Part shown: positions 25,613 to 45,816 of the stretch, piece after piece
Layout: the number at the start of each line of letters is the position of its first letter
Numbering within the stretch: position 1 is the first letter of the stretch
Assembly (NCBI GenBank): GCA_028289585.1
Contig: JANQPI010000010.1
Span: 620,001-684,000, forward strand
Origin: Candidatus Zixiibacteriota bacterium
GTDB lineage: Bacteria > Zixibacteria > MSB-5A5 > GN15 > FEB-12
Direction: 5' to 3'
Length of the DNA stretch: 64,000 nt
Translations under genes and position numbers: made by a program
The notes under the pieces: generated by a model
What the model was told of the DNA's origin: nothing
The model's database searches: none
Seen by the model: the letters and a program-made list of their open reading frames with translations, nothing else

Positions 25613-27925
25613 GTGGGAGTTCCGCTTAGTGCCCGACCTGACTTGGTTACGTCTCGTGTTAGCAACGACGACGGTGACGTCTATGTCGTTGTCAAGGAGC
25701 CGGTGACAGGTCGTATCATCCGTCTCCGTGAGCCAGAGTTCTGGTTACTGACCGCTGCGGATAGCACTAAGACCGCCTCAATGCTCGCGAGCGAGTTTGC
25801 TGAACGGTGGGTGAGTCGTCTCAGCGCCGATGAAGTTACCGGGTTCTTTGCTCAACTCGGAGCGCACGGATTTCTGACTCGACCGCCGACCGAGCAAGAG
25901 CGGGCTCGTTTGGCCAGCGATGAAAGCGCCCACACCCTTCTGGGACGATTGCTCTTCGTTAAGCTTCGTGCTTTTAATCCCGGACGTTTCCTCGACCGTC
26001 TCGCATCGATCTATCGACCATTTCATTCCGGGCTTGGCTTCATGCTGTTTGGCATAATCGCCGCCCTGGGAGTCATTGGCTTGATCGCCAACTTCGCGGT
26101 CTTTGCTGTTTCCCCTACCGAATTGTGGACTTCCGGTTCGATTCTCCTTCTCATTCCCGCCGTCTTTGTCGTCGTTGGGCTGCACGAGTTCGCACATGCT
26201 GTCGTGTGTCGTTACTATGGTGGCGAAGTGCGAGAGATCGGGTTTCTCCTGCTTTATTTCCAGCCCTGCTTCTACTGCGATATCTCCGATGCGTGGTTGT
26301 TTCCTCGGAAACGACAACGTCTCGCTGTGACCTGGGCGGGACCATTCATGCAGTTCTTGGTCATGGCGGCTGCCCTGGGGGTATGGCGAGTGACCGAGCC
26401 CGGTGTAGTGATTAATGAATTCGCTCGCATGGTCGTGCTGGTAGCGTGGGTCAACTTTCTGTTTAACTTCAACCCGTTGATCAAGCTCGATGGCTACTAT
26501 CTGCTCGTTGACCTCGTCGACATTCCCAACCTGCGTCAACGCGCCTTTACCTATCTTCGTGGAATCTACCGTTACTATATCGTCGGTGACGACACGCCAC
26601 CGCCAACGGTCACACCCCGAGAACAGCGGGTCTTTCTGATTTATGGATTTCTGGCGGGTCTGTTCTCGACAGCAATCATCGGTCTCATTCTGTGGCTGGC
26701 GGCATCGCTGGTAATTGGTGCCTGGGGCGGCGTGGGTTTAGTCTTGTTTGCCGGATTACTCGCGGCTATGCTCCGAAAACGACCGCCCCGTGAGGATCGC
26801 TCCGCAATGAACGATTCGGCTCCAACGCCGCCCCGAGGAACACGTCGCTTCTGGCGCCGCATCAGCTACGGCATCGTCGCCGTTGTTGTCTTTGTCGTTG
26901 GTGTTGCCGTGCCATTTCCAGACCGCGTATCGGGTGCCGTTACGGTCGTCCCGTTACTGACCTTCGATCTATCATTGAACGAATTTGGTCTCTTGGAGCA
27001 ATCGCTTCGACAGCGCGGGCAGGAACCGGTTGTGCAAACCTCGTACTTGCAAATGACGTCGAGTGATGTTGCCGCGCTTCGTCTCTCACCCCAGGTCATG
27101 GATGGCGATCGCGTCACTGCCGGGGATACGATCGCGATTCTTTCGTCGAATCAGGTGACCCAAGAGTTGTCGGTTGTGGCCGCCGAACTGGAGCGATTGG
27201 AAAGCGAACGAGATCTGTTGATGGCACCGCCGAAACCGGAAGCCGTTGCCGAAGCATCGGCGGAAGTCGATGCCGCTCAGGCGCAACTCGATCAGTTGGT
27301 GCAGGAGCAAGAGCGAATCTCACAGCTGGCCGAGCGAAATCTGATTGCAGTCGAAGAGCGAGAGCAAGTCGACTCACGTGTCGCCGTGGCCCGGGCAGAT
27401 CTGGCTAATCGCCAATCCGCTCTCGATCTCCTGATCGCGCCACCTCGCGACGAAGAGCTCGATGTCATCTCTCGGCAAGTCGACATCCAGAACGCACGCA
27501 AGGCGTTCCTTCTCGACCAACAGGCAGCCCAAATAGTCAGCACCCCAATCTCCGGTACAGCCATCGTACAGCCGGTCAACGGACGGTTCATGCGAATCGT
27601 TGCTCAGAATCAGGTCGAGATCATTGTGCCCGTTTCTGACTTTGATCTACCGCGTGTCAGTAGTGGTCAGGTCGTGAAGGTGAAGGTGCGAGCATGGCCG
27701 GATCGCGTGTTCTCCGGTGCCGTTGTACGGTTACCGGAAGCTGCTGATTCGACACTGGGGCCGCGCACGTATGCTGTGTCAGTCGTGGTTGATAATGCTG
27801 ATCGACTGCTTCGAGATGGCATGTCGGGATTCGCCAAAATCGAAACCGGTCGAACCGCATTGCTCCCCCAGCTGTGGCGGTATCTGCAATCGGTTGTGCG
27901 AGTGGAATTTTGGTCCTGGTGGTAG
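25613..27925 (+). CDS. PqqD-like / M50 metalloprotease / HlyD fusion (YydH-like peptide processing-export protein)
   Basis: 770 residues in three parts. Residues 1-105 look like a PqqD/RRE-type peptide-binding domain. Residues about 140-410 form an M50 site-2-protease membrane domain with zinc motif HEFAHA (His191, Glu192, His195) and IKLDGYYLL with Asp293 as third ligand. After a membrane helix near 425 comes a HlyD-type adaptor with a coiled coil (about 520-620) and flanking lipoyl-like strands. This architecture is that of the so-called putative peptide zinc metalloproteases such as YydH, which serve exported modified peptides. The start is GTG 25613; the first ATG is too far in. A 30-codon peptide gene follows 317 bases downstream. 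Confidence 0.83.
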   Translation: MGVPLSARPDLVTSRVSNDDGDVYVVVKEPVTGRIIRLREPEFWLLTAADSTKTASMLASEFAERWVSRLSADEVTGFFAQLGAHGFLTRPPTEQERARLASDESAHTLLGRLLFVKLRAFNPGRFLDRLASIYRPFHSGLGFMLFGIIAALGVIGLIANFAVFAVSPTELWTSGSILLLIPAVFVVVGLHEFAHAVVCRYYGGEVREIGFLLLYFQPCFYCDISDAWLFPRKRQRLAVTWAGPFMQFLVMAAALGVWRVTEPGVVINEFARMVVLVAWVNFLFNFNPLIKLDGYYLLVDLVDIPNLRQRAFTYLRGIYRYYIVGDDTPPPTVTPREQRVFLIYGFLAGLFSTAIIGLILWLAASLVIGAWGGVGLVLFAGLLAAMLRKRPPREDRSAMNDSAPTPPRGTRRFWRRISYGIVAVVVFVVGVAVPFPDRVSGAVTVVPLLTFDLSLNEFGLLEQSLRQRGQEPVVQTSYLQMTSSDVAALRLSPQVMDGDRVTAGDTIAILSSNQVTQELSVVAAELERLESERDLLMAPPKPEAVAEASAEVDAAQAQLDQLVQEQERISQLAERNLIAVEEREQVDSRVAVARADLANRQSALDLLIAPPRDEELDVISRQVDIQNARKAFLLDQQAAQIVSTPISGTAIVQPVNGRFMRIVAQNQVEIIVPVSDFDLPRVSSGQVVKVKVRAWPDRVFSGAVVRLPEAADSTLGPRTYAVSVVVDNADRLLRDGMSGFAKIETGRTALLPQLWRYLQSVVRVEFWSWW

Positions 27926-28030: not shown

Positions 28031-28060
28031 TTGACAGAATTCACTGTCACACACTACATT
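28031..28060 (+). promoter_or_regulatory. candidate promoter of the micropeptide gene
   Basis: TTGACA (28031-28036), 18-bp spacer, TACATT (28055-28060). The inverted repeat TGACAG-N6-CTGTCA overlaps the -35 box and could be an operator. Confidence 0.55.
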
Positions 28061-28228: not shown

Positions 28229-28239
28229 AAAGGAGGTGA
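28229..28239 (+). promoter_or_regulatory. strong ribosome binding site of the micropeptide
   Basis: AAAGGAGGTGA is an almost complete match to the 16S anti-Shine-Dalgarno and ends a few bases before ATG 28243. It is the strongest such site I noticed in the window and identifies the 30-codon frame as a real gene. Confidence 0.8.
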
Positions 28240-28242
28240 CTC

Positions 28243-28335
28243 ATGACGGATTACAAGTTGACCGTTGAGGTCCTTGAAAGCCGTACCGCGCCCCTGGGTC
28301 TGAGCCTGGGTGGTCAGTGGGGTTTCGGCCGCTAA
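28243..28335 (+). CDS. 30-residue peptide, putative exported or RiPP-like precursor
   Basis: ATG 28243 to TAA 28333-28335 encodes 30 residues. The N-terminal half is polar and could be helical, with VEVLESRTAP at 8-17. The C-terminal half is small, glycine-rich and aromatic, ending GGQWGFGR (23-30). The leader/core split resembles precursors of ribosomally made peptides. There is no Cys, and Ser and Thr are few. It has its own promoter, a near-perfect Shine-Dalgarno and a strong terminator 28 bases after the stop, so it is probably expressed at a high level. The neighbouring PqqD/M50/HlyD protein could recognise, cleave and export it. No modification enzyme is adjacent. I do not recognise a named family. 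Confidence 0.72.
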   Translation: MTDYKLTVEVLESRTAPLGLSLGGQWGFGR

Positions 28336-28363: not shown

Positions 28364-28394
28364 AAGGCGGACCCTTGGGTCCGCCTTCCTTTTT
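28364..28394 (+). terminator. rho-independent terminator after the micropeptide
   Basis: AAGGCGGACC (28364-28373) pairs with GGTCCGCCTT (28378-28387) around CTTG, a 10-bp perfect stem, followed by CC and TTTTT (28390-28394). It ends the short micropeptide transcript. Confidence 0.88.
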
Positions 28395-28416
28395 GGTATA
28401 CCTGCTCGCTACTGAT

Positions 28417-31323
28417 TTATCGTGTCGCTAAGCGATCGGCCAGTGCTTTCATCATCTGACCGAGATGGACGACATCTCGTCGTGTCGTAAACGCTTTGCC
28501 ACGATCACGATCGGTCGTCTGCTCAAGAATCGTACGAACTGCACCCAACGCCGACTGGCAGTAACGAAACGCTGCTTCGTAGTCGCCACTTGCTTCGGCG
28601 ATCTGTGCCAGCAGCACTTCTGCCGAAACGGTATCTGGTGCCAGGCAACGCGGTTGTGCCCAGCGATAGGCTGCCTGGGCCCAGTCTTCTGCGTTGGTAA
28701 ACTCACCGGCGGCGAAACAGCGGCGCCCGATAGTGACAGCGATCCGCCCCCGCTCAATTCGCTCGGGCAACTCGTTGACACTTTGAGGTAGCTTTCGTAG
28801 TGACGCAGCGTCATCGAACGACCACAGCAGGTCCGCTACTAGCAATGCCTCTCGAGGAAGATGGTCTTCGTCCAGGCACGCACTCAGGTCGGTATGATAA
28901 GTCGCGACGCCTTCGAGTCGGCCGAGGATCAGCAGGGCGTGGATTTCCGCCGAGCGATTGGATTGTTCCCGAGCGAGATGCAGCGCATCGCGGGCTGCCA
29001 GGCGGGCGTCTTCCACCTGACCAAGAAACTCCTGCCAGGCAGCTTGTTCGAGTGCAAAATTGAGCTGTGTTATCGGGTCGTCCAGTTGTATGAGAAGTTC
29101 GCGGACGTTGTCGAGAGCATCTGCTGTTTTGTCGAGTTCCCCGCACGAGCGAGCGAGGTTCGCTCGATGCAGAAGGAAGATGGCACGGTGAGGGTTGTCG
29201 CTCAGCTGTTCGGCCAGAGCCAATCCGTCGCCAATCAGTTCTGCTGCCACCCTCGTGCGACCTGCGACGATCGTCAGTCCGGTCAGGTTTTCGAGGTTGA
29301 TCAGGACCTCTTTCTGATTGCCTATCCGTTGGTTTATTCGGAGCGACTCGGAGAGATCATCAGCTGCCGCGGCATAGTCACCCAGACGTTGATGAACGAA
29401 GCCGATGTTGTTGAGCGTACGAGCGATCTCACCGGCATCACCGAGCGAGCGTTTCTTGTCCAGCGATGCCCGGAAGAGGGCCAGGGCCCGTTCGAAGCGA
29501 CCGAGCATTGTGTAGGCCGAAGCGATGTTGTTGAGGGTCGACGCTACTTCTGGGTCGGCGTTCGCTGCGCGCTGGATGCGCAGGGCTTGCCGGTACTCGC
29601 GGAGCGCGGTGGCAAAGTCAGAGATCAGCCAGCAGAGATTTCCGAGGTTGTTATGGACACGGGATAACTCCAGCGTTTCTCCGAGTTCCGTGTACACAGC
29701 TGCGGCAGCCGAGAGAGCGTCGCGGCCAGCCCGGTAGTCCTGGCGCAGTCGATAGAGATCGCCGAGTGCTTTGTAGACGTCGCCAAGTAAGCGGTCGCGC
29801 GGTCGTCCGGTCTCTTCGTATTTCGCAACGATCTCTTCACATGCTGCGATTGCCTGAGCGATGTCGCCCATCTCTTTCCATAGTCGGGCCTTACGATAGG
29901 TTAGGGGGAGAGTAGCCCCAATCTGATCGTTGAATGTCAGATATCGACAGCAATCGTCCAGATACCGTATCGCACCCGCGGAATCACCTGACTCGCCAGT
30001 AGCTACCGCCGTCGATTCGGCCAACGCGATGATCGCATCGATGTCGCCAGCTTGGAGTGCCAGCCTGCCACGGCGAGTGACACAATCGGCATCGGTACTC
30101 CTCTGTAGAAGCTCTCGTGACAGATGCCGCATCGTTGCTGGTTTTGTGAGGGCGCGAAGGTGCGCTGCCAGAGGGTTCGGCGGAGTCGGTTCGGCAGCCT
30201 GTTGCAGGAGTTGTCGACGTTCAGCCCATCGCGTCTGCCCATAGCTCGAAAGCCACTGTCGACGCAGCACCGTCGGCCGAATCCAAGCTTTCGGTTTCGT
30301 CCATTGGCCTCCGTCGAGCTGCATCTGACCGCGCCGCCATGTCTCGCTGATAATCAGTCGTGCCTGATGCGTATCAGACTCACTCCAGAAGGCGAGGTCG
30401 CCGGCGTCCGGTGCTATGCACTGCTGCCAATCATCGCAGCTGCTTCCACTTGAAACGACATGCTTGGGCTGGATCGCCCGGTTAACTGGATACGGCGATC
30501 CAAGCTCGGCCAGTCGTTCCAGAACAATTGCGACCGATTGGGGCCGACGCTCAGGATCGACCGCGAGTAACTGGTCGATCAGCGCCGATAGTCCGACAGG
30601 TAGGTCCCGTCGAACATCATCAAGGGCATCTCGTTCGCCAGCGGCAACCCGAGCTGCGACGCGGGTAGGGTCACTGTCTTCGGCGAGGTAGGGGTGACGT
30701 CCGGTCAGTAACTCCCAGAACGATACCCCAAGGGCAAACAGCTCGGTTTGGATCGATGACGGGCCACCGGCCACCAGTTCCGGAGCGAGGTAGCCCACGG
30801 TGCCGATACCGAGGCGAGTGGATTCATCGTCGCTAACCTGGCGGCCAAGCGAAAAATCAGAAAGACGAACCCAACTGAGCTCACCGGTGGTCAAGCGGGT
30901 AGTGTCGACGGGGAGAAAGACATTGTGGGGCTTGATGTCACCATGGATGAGTCCGACAATCTCGCACCAGTAGAGGCCGGTGGCGAACGCTGAGAAGATA
31001 GCGAGCGCATCGCCGATCGCCTCGATACGGCCGACCTGATCGAGCGATGATCCGGCGCAGTAACTGAGCGCCAGCCAATCAGCATCGATATGCATCTGCT
31101 CAATCCCGACAATACCCGGCCAGCGATAGCCGCTAACCAGCGTTGCTTCTCGTCGCGCTAACTGTCGGAAGAGTTTGCGATCTTCCGGAGAGGAATCCGC
31201 AAGGGGAGATTTGATTGCGTAGCGACGGCCAGTTGGGTCACTGGCCAGAAAGACCGTTGCCGTGCCACCCTCGCCGAGGGTCGAGTGGAGCCTCCAGCCG
31301 GGCGGTAGCGACGGGCCGATCAC
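28417..31323 (-). CDS. Ser/Thr protein kinase with C-terminal TPR array
   Basis: 968 residues. The kinase domain (about 1-275) has G-loop LGEGGTATVF (16-25), Lys38 in YAIKSP, catalytic loop HGDIKPHN (127-134) and SDFSLG (155-160) in place of DFG. The catalytic Asp129 and metal Asp156 are kept, but HRD is HGD and the Gly of DFG is Ser. APE is present as LAPEL. From about residue 390 to 930 there are many TPR repeats (LNNIASAYTMLGRFERAL, LNNIGFVHQRLGDYAAA), a protein-binding scaffold. It starts with GTG overlapping the stop of the upstream histidine kinase (GTGA), so the two kinases are one transcription unit. Confidence 0.88.
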   Translation of the reverse strand: MIGPSLPPGWRLHSTLGEGGTATVFLASDPTGRRYAIKSPLADSSPEDRKLFRQLARREATLVSGYRWPGIVGIEQMHIDADWLALSYCAGSSLDQVGRIEAIGDALAIFSAFATGLYWCEIVGLIHGDIKPHNVFLPVDTTRLTTGELSWVRLSDFSLGRQVSDDESTRLGIGTVGYLAPELVAGGPSSIQTELFALGVSFWELLTGRHPYLAEDSDPTRVAARVAAGERDALDDVRRDLPVGLSALIDQLLAVDPERRPQSVAIVLERLAELGSPYPVNRAIQPKHVVSSGSSCDDWQQCIAPDAGDLAFWSESDTHQARLIISETWRRGQMQLDGGQWTKPKAWIRPTVLRRQWLSSYGQTRWAERRQLLQQAAEPTPPNPLAAHLRALTKPATMRHLSRELLQRSTDADCVTRRGRLALQAGDIDAIIALAESTAVATGESGDSAGAIRYLDDCCRYLTFNDQIGATLPLTYRKARLWKEMGDIAQAIAACEEIVAKYEETGRPRDRLLGDVYKALGDLYRLRQDYRAGRDALSAAAAVYTELGETLELSRVHNNLGNLCWLISDFATALREYRQALRIQRAANADPEVASTLNNIASAYTMLGRFERALALFRASLDKKRSLGDAGEIARTLNNIGFVHQRLGDYAAAADDLSESLRINQRIGNQKEVLINLENLTGLTIVAGRTRVAAELIGDGLALAEQLSDNPHRAIFLLHRANLARSCGELDKTADALDNVRELLIQLDDPITQLNFALEQAAWQEFLGQVEDARLAARDALHLAREQSNRSAEIHALLILGRLEGVATYHTDLSACLDEDHLPREALLVADLLWSFDDAASLRKLPQSVNELPERIERGRIAVTIGRRCFAAGEFTNAEDWAQAAYRWAQPRCLAPDTVSAEVLLAQIAEASGDYEAAFRYCQSALGAVRTILEQTTDRDRGKAFTTRRDVVHLGQMMKALADRLATR

Positions 31324-44604: not shown

Positions 44605-45816
44605 CTAGCGCACCCAGCGAGGGGAGATATCCAGCGGTTGGAAGGTCAGAAAGAGATGGTCGATCAGCCGCGAAAGATCCGGGAGTCCGATATCTCCGTT
44701 TCCGTCTACCGCAACGTTGGCCCGCCATACTGGTTGGGGGAGTGGCGTAAAGCTCACAAACAGAAAATCGATGAGGCGACTGAGGTCGGCTAGGTCGACA
44801 CTCCAGTCACCATTGACATCTCCCGCGAGCCAATTGAGATCAGCCTGCAGGGGACCATCTCCCAGGACAAACGTTGCCGATGCGCCGGTGGAATCGATGA
44901 TCTGTCCGGTATCGGCGAACGACAGCGCCAGCGCACCGGGCGAGTCGAGTAGGCCAACGCCAATCTGGCTCGTTGCCAGGACGAGAGGGCTAGCGGCATC
45001 ACGGATTACGGTCAGGTCTGATGCATTGTAGACGAAGACGTTGCCCGGTCCCGAAAATCCTCCGCCGGCAACGTACGCGATGTCGTCCTGGTCGATGACA
45101 ATCTGGCCGGGTGAGCCGCCAAGGACAACTGAATCAACGACTCCTCCGGCCGCGGGGTCGATGACATAAACAGCACCAAAGACCGTCGCAAAGTCACCGG
45201 TGCAGACTACATGAAGCCGGCCTTGGCTGTCCCACGCCATGAACTGCGGATTCAAGCCAACGGGTATAGCCCCAATTCGGCTCTGGGTAACACGATCGTA
45301 AATGGCAACCTCGCCCGGATCGTATTGGAAGGTTGAGAAATCGAAACCGGTCATCGCAACGAATACGGTATCTCGCCAGACGGCCAGCGCTTGGGGGGAC
45401 TTGCCAATCGAATCGGTCCGCACCACCGAATCTTTTTTCAGGTCCACCGTGGCGATGCTGTTGTCGACGAGCAACGAAACATAGGCCAGCGAGTCGTTAG
45501 CGAGATCGATCCAGTACGGATTGCTAAATGGCGGAAAGTCGATGAACCCGATCGTTGAATCGCCAAGGAGATCTAGAACCTGCAGCTCGTTCGTGCTTGA
45601 GTTCACGACATACCCGCACTCACCCCAAATGAGGATCTGATTCGGCGCCGAGCCAACGTCTGATCCAAGACTGATCGTATTGTTCGAGACCGTAAGGGTG
45701 GTCAACTCGACGGTTGAGATCGTTTCGCCCAATGAGTTAACAACGTAGCTAATCGGCTGACCAAAAGCAGTTGCGGTGAACAGGGCGAGGGAGAAGAGAA
45801 GAGTTGCGACTTTCAT
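44605..45816 (-). CDS. secreted beta-propeller protein with C-terminal dockerin-like repeats
   Basis: 403 residues. Signal peptide MKVATLLFSLALFTATAFG. Residues about 20-320 hold repeated blades of the YVTN/lactonase type (FVAMTGFDFSTFQYDPGEVA, QFMAWDSQGRLHVVCTGD, IVIDQDDIAYVAGGG). The C-terminus has two EF-hand-like dockerin repeats: GDVNGDWSVDLADLSRLIDF and DGNGDIGLPDLSRLIDHLF. No cohesin is visible in the window. This propeller-plus-GDVNGD layout is common in some FCB candidate phyla, in my memory. It is convergent with the deiodinase-like gene, 20 bases away. Confidence 0.8.
   Translation of the reverse strand: MKVATLLFSLALFTATAFGQPISYVVNSLGETISTVELTTLTVSNNTISLGSDVGSAPNQILIWGECGYVVNSSTNELQVLDLLGDSTIGFIDFPPFSNPYWIDLANDSLAYVSLLVDNSIATVDLKKDSVVRTDSIGKSPQALAVWRDTVFVAMTGFDFSTFQYDPGEVAIYDRVTQSRIGAIPVGLNPQFMAWDSQGRLHVVCTGDFATVFGAVYVIDPAAGGVVDSVVLGGSPGQIVIDQDDIAYVAGGGFSGPGNVFVYNASDLTVIRDAASPLVLATSQIGVGLLDSPGALALSFADTGQIIDSTGASATFVLGDGPLQADLNWLAGDVNGDWSVDLADLSRLIDFLFVSFTPLPQPVWRANVAVDGNGDIGLPDLSRLIDHLFLTFQPLDISPRWVR

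Follow-up and report, generated by a model that had tools for sequence, protein, structure and literature searches.

Is a 30-codon reading frame, below the size range of normal annotation, a genuine gene, and if so, what becomes of its product? The question is raised by positions 28243 to 28335 of the window, that is, the whole 64,000-nucleotide stretch of Candidatus Zixiibacteriota DNA that was analyzed. An earlier note had described an orphan peptide gene with exceptionally strong expression signals, the product of which (translation, MTDYKLTVEVLESRTAPLGLSLGGQWGFGR) would split into a leader and a core and be linked to M50/HlyD genes. The features of the locus are collected in Table 1.

Table 1. 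Features of the peptide locus (positions are those of the window)
Feature	Position	Strand	Basis
RRE-M50-HlyD fusion, 770 aa; proposed leader-binding protease and exporter	25613..27925	+	Pfam, NF041824, co-occurrence
RRE-like domain (beta3-alpha3) of fusion	25634..25897	+	AlphaFold2 model; best PDB fold matches are RREs
HEFAH zinc-protease motif, M50 domain, residues 191-195	26183..26197	+	Invariant H, E, H columns in alignment
HlyD/MacA-like periplasmic adaptor part	26909..27925	+	Pfam; Foldseek MacA/EmrA matches
Promoter-like site TTGACA-N18-TACATT	28031..28060	+	Equivalent site in most same-family relatives
Shine-Dalgarno AAAGGAGGTGA	28229..28239	+	GGAGG(T)-type sites 5' of nearly all homologues
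30-codon precursor peptide gene, ATG to TAA	28243..28335	+	Homologues; pS >> pN
Leader MTDYKLTVEVLESRTAP, recognition motif ending at Pro(-1)	28243..28293	+	Conserved columns; same leader on unrelated cores in other phyla
Predicted core LGLSLGGQWGFGR, proposed released product	28294..28332	+	Boundary from conservation and daptide ELExMEAP numbering with Pro(-1)
Intrinsic terminator: 10-bp G+C-rich stem, then T-rich tail	28364..28397	+	Terminator in 40/41 copies
Convergent Ser/Thr kinase-TPR protein; conserved neighbor, possible sensor, link unproven	28417..31323	-	Pfam; synteny across phylum

A short gene conserved across Zixibacteria

The reading frame, ribosome site, promoter-like site, and 10-bp terminator reported in the earlier note were all recovered. 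For the promoter, the description as exceptionally strong is not supported, as this element by itself is only at chance level: scans of the window alone found 1 promoter against 0.6 expected and 1 terminator against 1.4 expected, the latter likewise no better than chance. Comparison with homologues was more informative. A TTGAC(A/G)...TATNTT promoter lies ∼105 to 127 nt 5' of the start in most relatives of the same family, and a terminator follows the stop codon in 40/41 homologous copies. Because both elements are conserved in relatives, and not on the strength of the scans alone, we accept them as real.

An initial search yielded homologues in 48 of 61 related genomes. A profile built from 32 homologues was then run against 132 Zixibacteria genomes and, at a threshold of E ≤ 0.001, matched peptides in ∼104 of them. 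The peptide is thus a member of a family present in most Zixibacteria genomes, and with about 100 homologues, the gene cannot be called an orphan. The Zixibacteria homologues are 20 to 35 residues long, nearly all are preceded by a GGAGG-type ribosome site, and they usually have the same neighbors. The usual copy number is one per genome; one distant family has 2 copies, and one genus carries up to 7 in tandem, with cores such as SRYGAE. Within that genus (genomes L095, L096, L098, and L099), we observed 2 to 7 tandem copies with SRYGAE, SRWGAD, or SKYGADG cores, and the kinase-TPR gene was undetected in the 4 genomes.

Two outcomes had been named beforehand as refuting the gene, namely, a frame not conserved in relatives and substitutions without codon-position bias, and neither was obtained. 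The frame is kept across the phylum, and the third codon position is far more variable (mean entropy, 1.58) than the first and second (0.57 and 0.46). In the true frame, pS was 0.77 and pN was 0.215, a pattern absent from the other two frames, and pS exceeded pN in 777/780 peptide gene pairs. Given the conserved frame, the substitution bias, and the promoter/terminator architecture, we conclude that the gene is genuine, codes for protein, and forms a short transcription unit by itself. Neither Pfam nor NCBIfam holds a model matching the peptide, and a literature search on the LEERIAP motif returned unrelated papers only. No paper describing RRE-M50-HlyD fusions with such peptides was found; most subscription papers lay outside the search, and novelty is therefore unproven.

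Leader, core, and the RRE-M50-HlyD partner

Alignment of 94 Zixibacteria peptides on the motif gave the consensus leader (M)xxYxLx[I/V]ExLE[A/E][R/K][I/V]AP, followed by the core. The regular expression used to select these 94 peptides demanded the L, E, and P residues of the motif, but the same residues show no variation in the alignment of 32 homologues, which was made independently. The core is mostly xGxSxGGQ and mostly 6 to 9 residues long, in some cases extended by a Gly/aromatic tail, as it is in the window, and contains Ser in 94/94 cases. Judged from these alignments, the peptide has two parts: a conserved leader, the last residues of which are LExx[I/V]AP, and, after it, a short core of the Gly/Ser type. 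The earlier note had placed the leader end near VEVLESRTAP, ahead of a Gly-rich, variable core. A conserved leader and differing cores were indeed found, but within Zixibacteria the core is short, fairly conserved, and not hypervariable.

Cores of a quite different kind occur elsewhere. When one degenerate DNA pattern was scanned over 84,980 species, the same leader was retrieved outside Zixibacteria on peptides of ∼50 aa (48 to 58 aa), often in tandem, with Gly/Asn/Pro-rich cores of 30 to 40 residues. The family is rare there: broader phylum samples contained it in 1/145 genomes for the phylum of the Verrucomicrobia hit, 4/47 for that of the Eisenbacteria hit, and 1/198 for that of the DP_3 hit. 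In the Eisenbacteria group (L259 to L261), the leader reads LExLEQRIAP, the cores are Gly/Ser/His/Lys repeats, and an M50-HlyD gene adjoins. Nearly identical core types (GNPGNNNPP..NNTNNPGNEG; GVPGESNGNPGNEVSNG) were observed in different phyla (L245, L246, L248, and L254), which suggests horizontal spread of the precursors. The same scan found the leader at the start of two proteins of >500 residues (L144:2480-5626, minus strand, MPDKLRMEELEERIAP; L160:6300-8000, plus strand, MGRKLRFEELEERIAP), and it may act as an additional sorting signal for large proteins.

The protein encoded upstream of the peptide matches Peptidase_M50 and HlyD_D23 in Pfam. Its protease half best matches the daptide leader protease family (NF041824, daptide_HExxH; 7e-64, residues 26 to 387), with a score of 216 bits against a curated cutoff of 300; the match to the epipeptide M50 protease model NF058609 is weaker (E value, 4e-10). 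The HExxH and LDG motifs are conserved in the M50-HlyD alignment. In the AlphaFold2 model, a beta3-alpha3 domain is predicted to be followed by a membrane part and a MacA/EmrA-like adaptor. The best PDB fold matches of the N-terminal domain modeled alone are leader-binding RREs (lasso TbiB1 and B1; sactipeptide CteB), with probabilities of 0.97 to 0.99 but weak E values (0.03 to 0.2). A Foldseek search with the full 770-aa model gave adaptor proteins only among the best 50 matches. On the basis of these best fold matches, we describe the N terminus of the predicted structure as RRE-like; that it binds the leader is an inference.

The link to an M50/HlyD gene drawn in the earlier note is borne out by co-occurrence or adjacency both inside and outside the phylum. 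Among the 132 Zixibacteria genomes, 97 have both peptide and partner, 24 have neither, 7 have the peptide only, and 4 have the partner only (Fisher P = 3e-16, a value that ignores shared ancestry and fragmented assemblies). Several of the peptide-only cases are located at contig ends. The partner was undetected in two single-contig but incomplete genomes (G027 and G057) and in one Nitrospiria genome, all with the peptide present. Outside Zixibacteria, the partner was retrieved at E ≤ 1e-50 from 12/13 peptide-positive genomes versus 0/30 peptide-negative genomes, and it adjoins the peptide in eight; such adjacency was seen in several phyla. Two genomes of one genus lack both genes, and ClC there directly abuts the kinase gene; a third genome of that genus retains both, and we read this as a clean loss of the pair together.

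The order in most Zixibacteria is M50-HlyD, peptide, convergent kinase-TPR, and histidine kinase, and the conserved neighbors comprise ClC, kinase-TPR, histidine kinase, nudix, and SpoIIE-type genes. In one genome (L038), the kinase lies elsewhere and the peptide still accompanies the M50-HlyD gene. M50-HlyD is present but not next to the peptide in one family and several others, where it lies ∼22 to 25 kb away or on another contig; a second leader peptide beside these displaced M50-HlyD genes was looked for, and none was found. The kinase-TPR protein of the window contains HGDIKPHN and has DFS in place of DFG, and LSDFSL/ISDFSL were the commonest forms among the 59 homologues searched. Farther along the window, the translation of positions 44605 to 45816 (minus strand) reads as a secreted beta-propeller-like protein with dockerin-like repeats at its end (GDVNGDWSVDLADLSRLIDFLF...).

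Proposed processing and competing explanations

We propose that the leader would be bound by the RRE-like domain at the N terminus of the upstream fusion, that the M50 site-2 protease part would cut after the conserved Ala-Pro, and that the MacA/EmrA-like HlyD part would move the released core across the envelope (6 to 9 residues in most relatives). Once exported, the core could possibly act as a signal. The cut after Ala-Pro and the export via the fused adaptor are predicted because E.LExx[I/V]AP fits the ELExMEAP logic of daptides, in which an RRE-dependent site-2 protease removes leaders carrying this motif with Pro as the -1 residue (PMC10036551). We consider it likely that the gene encodes an RRE-guided leader peptide that is cut after IAP and whose core is exported by the same fusion, with leader binding, cut site, cleavage, and export all inferred. 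Read in this way, the locus points to a so far undescribed system for the secretion of small peptides or for signaling by them. The leader/core and M50/HlyD interpretation of the earlier note is supported. That there is usually a single copy, and that the core is conserved throughout the phylum, argues for a signaling or housekeeping role rather than a weapon, although any such function is likewise an inference.

The product may instead be a true RiPP, in which the core is modified before cleavage, for example through phosphorylation of Ser by the neighboring kinase or through the action of an enzyme whose gene lies elsewhere. The RRE and the leader/core logic are RiPP-type, and all 94 aligned cores contain Ser beside an adjoining Ser/Thr kinase gene. 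However, no known RiPP-class modification enzyme was found beside the Zixibacteria peptide or among the scanned neighbors in other phyla, these searches covering neighbors only; modification is an inference only, and we consider it unlikely. As an extension of the preferred reading, the released core of 6 to 13 residues could act in the manner of a pheromone, with the TPR region of the kinase as its sensor. In the RRNPP systems of Gram-positive bacteria, TPR receptors bind short peptides, and the core length is compatible with known pheromones. The kinase-TPR gene is the convergent neighbor in most of the phylum and stays by the peptide where M50-HlyD has moved away, and the genus without detectable kinase-TPR (4 genomes) is the one with amplified peptides and SRYGAE in place of GxSxGGQ cores. 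This correlation, however, comes from one lineage only; the core varies very little within the phylum as a whole, in which it differs from specific pheromones; outside Zixibacteria, no kinase of this kind was observed close to the peptides; and the kinase lies elsewhere in L038. We therefore hold the pheromone proposal to be unlikely. Because the kinase persists without the peptide in two genomes (G011 and G071), its role as a sensor or modifier of the peptide, which it may have, stays a minor hypothesis.

Other explanations dispense with processing. Many bacterial proteins of <50 aa regulate membrane proteins, and a small protein that is neither secreted nor cut and serves as a regulator or chaperone of the M50-HlyD protein would account for the small size and the tight co-occurrence with the partner. 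It fits poorly with strongly differing cores on a constant leader and with multiple tandem copies, and the same leader on proteins of >500 residues better fits a processing or export signal; we regard this explanation as quite improbable. A small ORF with a strong ribosome site and a terminator could also be an attenuator, an upstream leader ORF that controls the gene after it, or a mere chance ORF. The next downstream gene is on the opposite strand, and the attenuator was rejected for want of a same-strand target, while protein-level conservation and pS >> pN exclude a chance ORF; we give these two scarcely any credence. A remnant of a large secreted protein was also considered and rejected.

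Returning to the RRE-guided leader peptide, a bolder version can be formulated, in which one fused protein recognizes, cuts, and exports a peptide of 6 to 13 residues that is then either sensed or phosphorylated on its Ser by the neighboring TPR-Ser/Thr kinase, forming a phylum-wide signaling circuit. We judge this rather improbable. If true, it would constitute an RRNPP-like system in Gram-negative-type bacteria, assembled from RiPP parts. The preferred reading, for its part, would mean that Zixibacteria, which are known chiefly through metagenome assemblies, possess an abundant family of very small exported peptides that has apparently not been described before, together with a single protein in which recognition of the leader, cleavage within the membrane, and an envelope adaptor are united. 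Genes this small escape routine annotation, but they can easily be searched for by means of the leader motif, and expression in E. coli offers a way to test the system.

Comparison with known systems

Daptides (MpaA precursors and the RRE-site-2 protease MpaP; NF041824) share with this family the fusion of an RRE to an M50 site-2 protease and a short leader whose motif, of the ELE..AP type, has Ala-Pro at its end; their several precursors per locus are matched in some genomes here. In contrast, no aminotransferase, alcohol dehydrogenase, methyltransferase, or MpaB-type gene is nearby, and with the MpaB/C/D/M modification genes absent from the cluster, the daptide requirement for them is unmet. 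Daptide precursors have an invariant C-terminal Thr, whereas 0/94 cores end in Thr. The partner proteins score 207 to 232 bits against the NF041824 cutoff of 300, which they therefore fail, and no protein above this cutoff was found anywhere in the genome. A HlyD part is fused to the protease, and a genome usually has a single precursor, the core of which is conserved. Because daptide-modifying enzymes are lacking nearby and no core ends in Thr, we conclude that this is not a daptide, an identity that also fails on the protease cutoff.

In epipeptides (YydF/EpeX), the M50 protease YydH/EpeP/LiaK is thought to cut and export the peptide (PMC10885120). The M50 protease is shared with the present family, which differs in having no radical SAM epimerase among the scanned neighbors, a different precursor, and the HlyD fusion. 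Pearlin pathways use a scaffold to make their product, which is one modified residue. In these pathways (TglA/TmoA), the M50 protein TglG/TmoG acts on a ribosomal peptide (PMC10885120), but pearlin-type enzymes were not seen among the neighbors here. RRNPP signaling offers an analogy only, that of a short processed peptide beside a TPR protein; here, the protein with the TPR region is a Ser/Thr kinase, the peptide lacks hydrophobic character, the leader follows RRE logic, and the proposed export is across a Gram-negative-type envelope. The peptide and its fusion partner are classed among the RRE-guided leader peptides cut by a site-2 protease, with binding and cut inferred.
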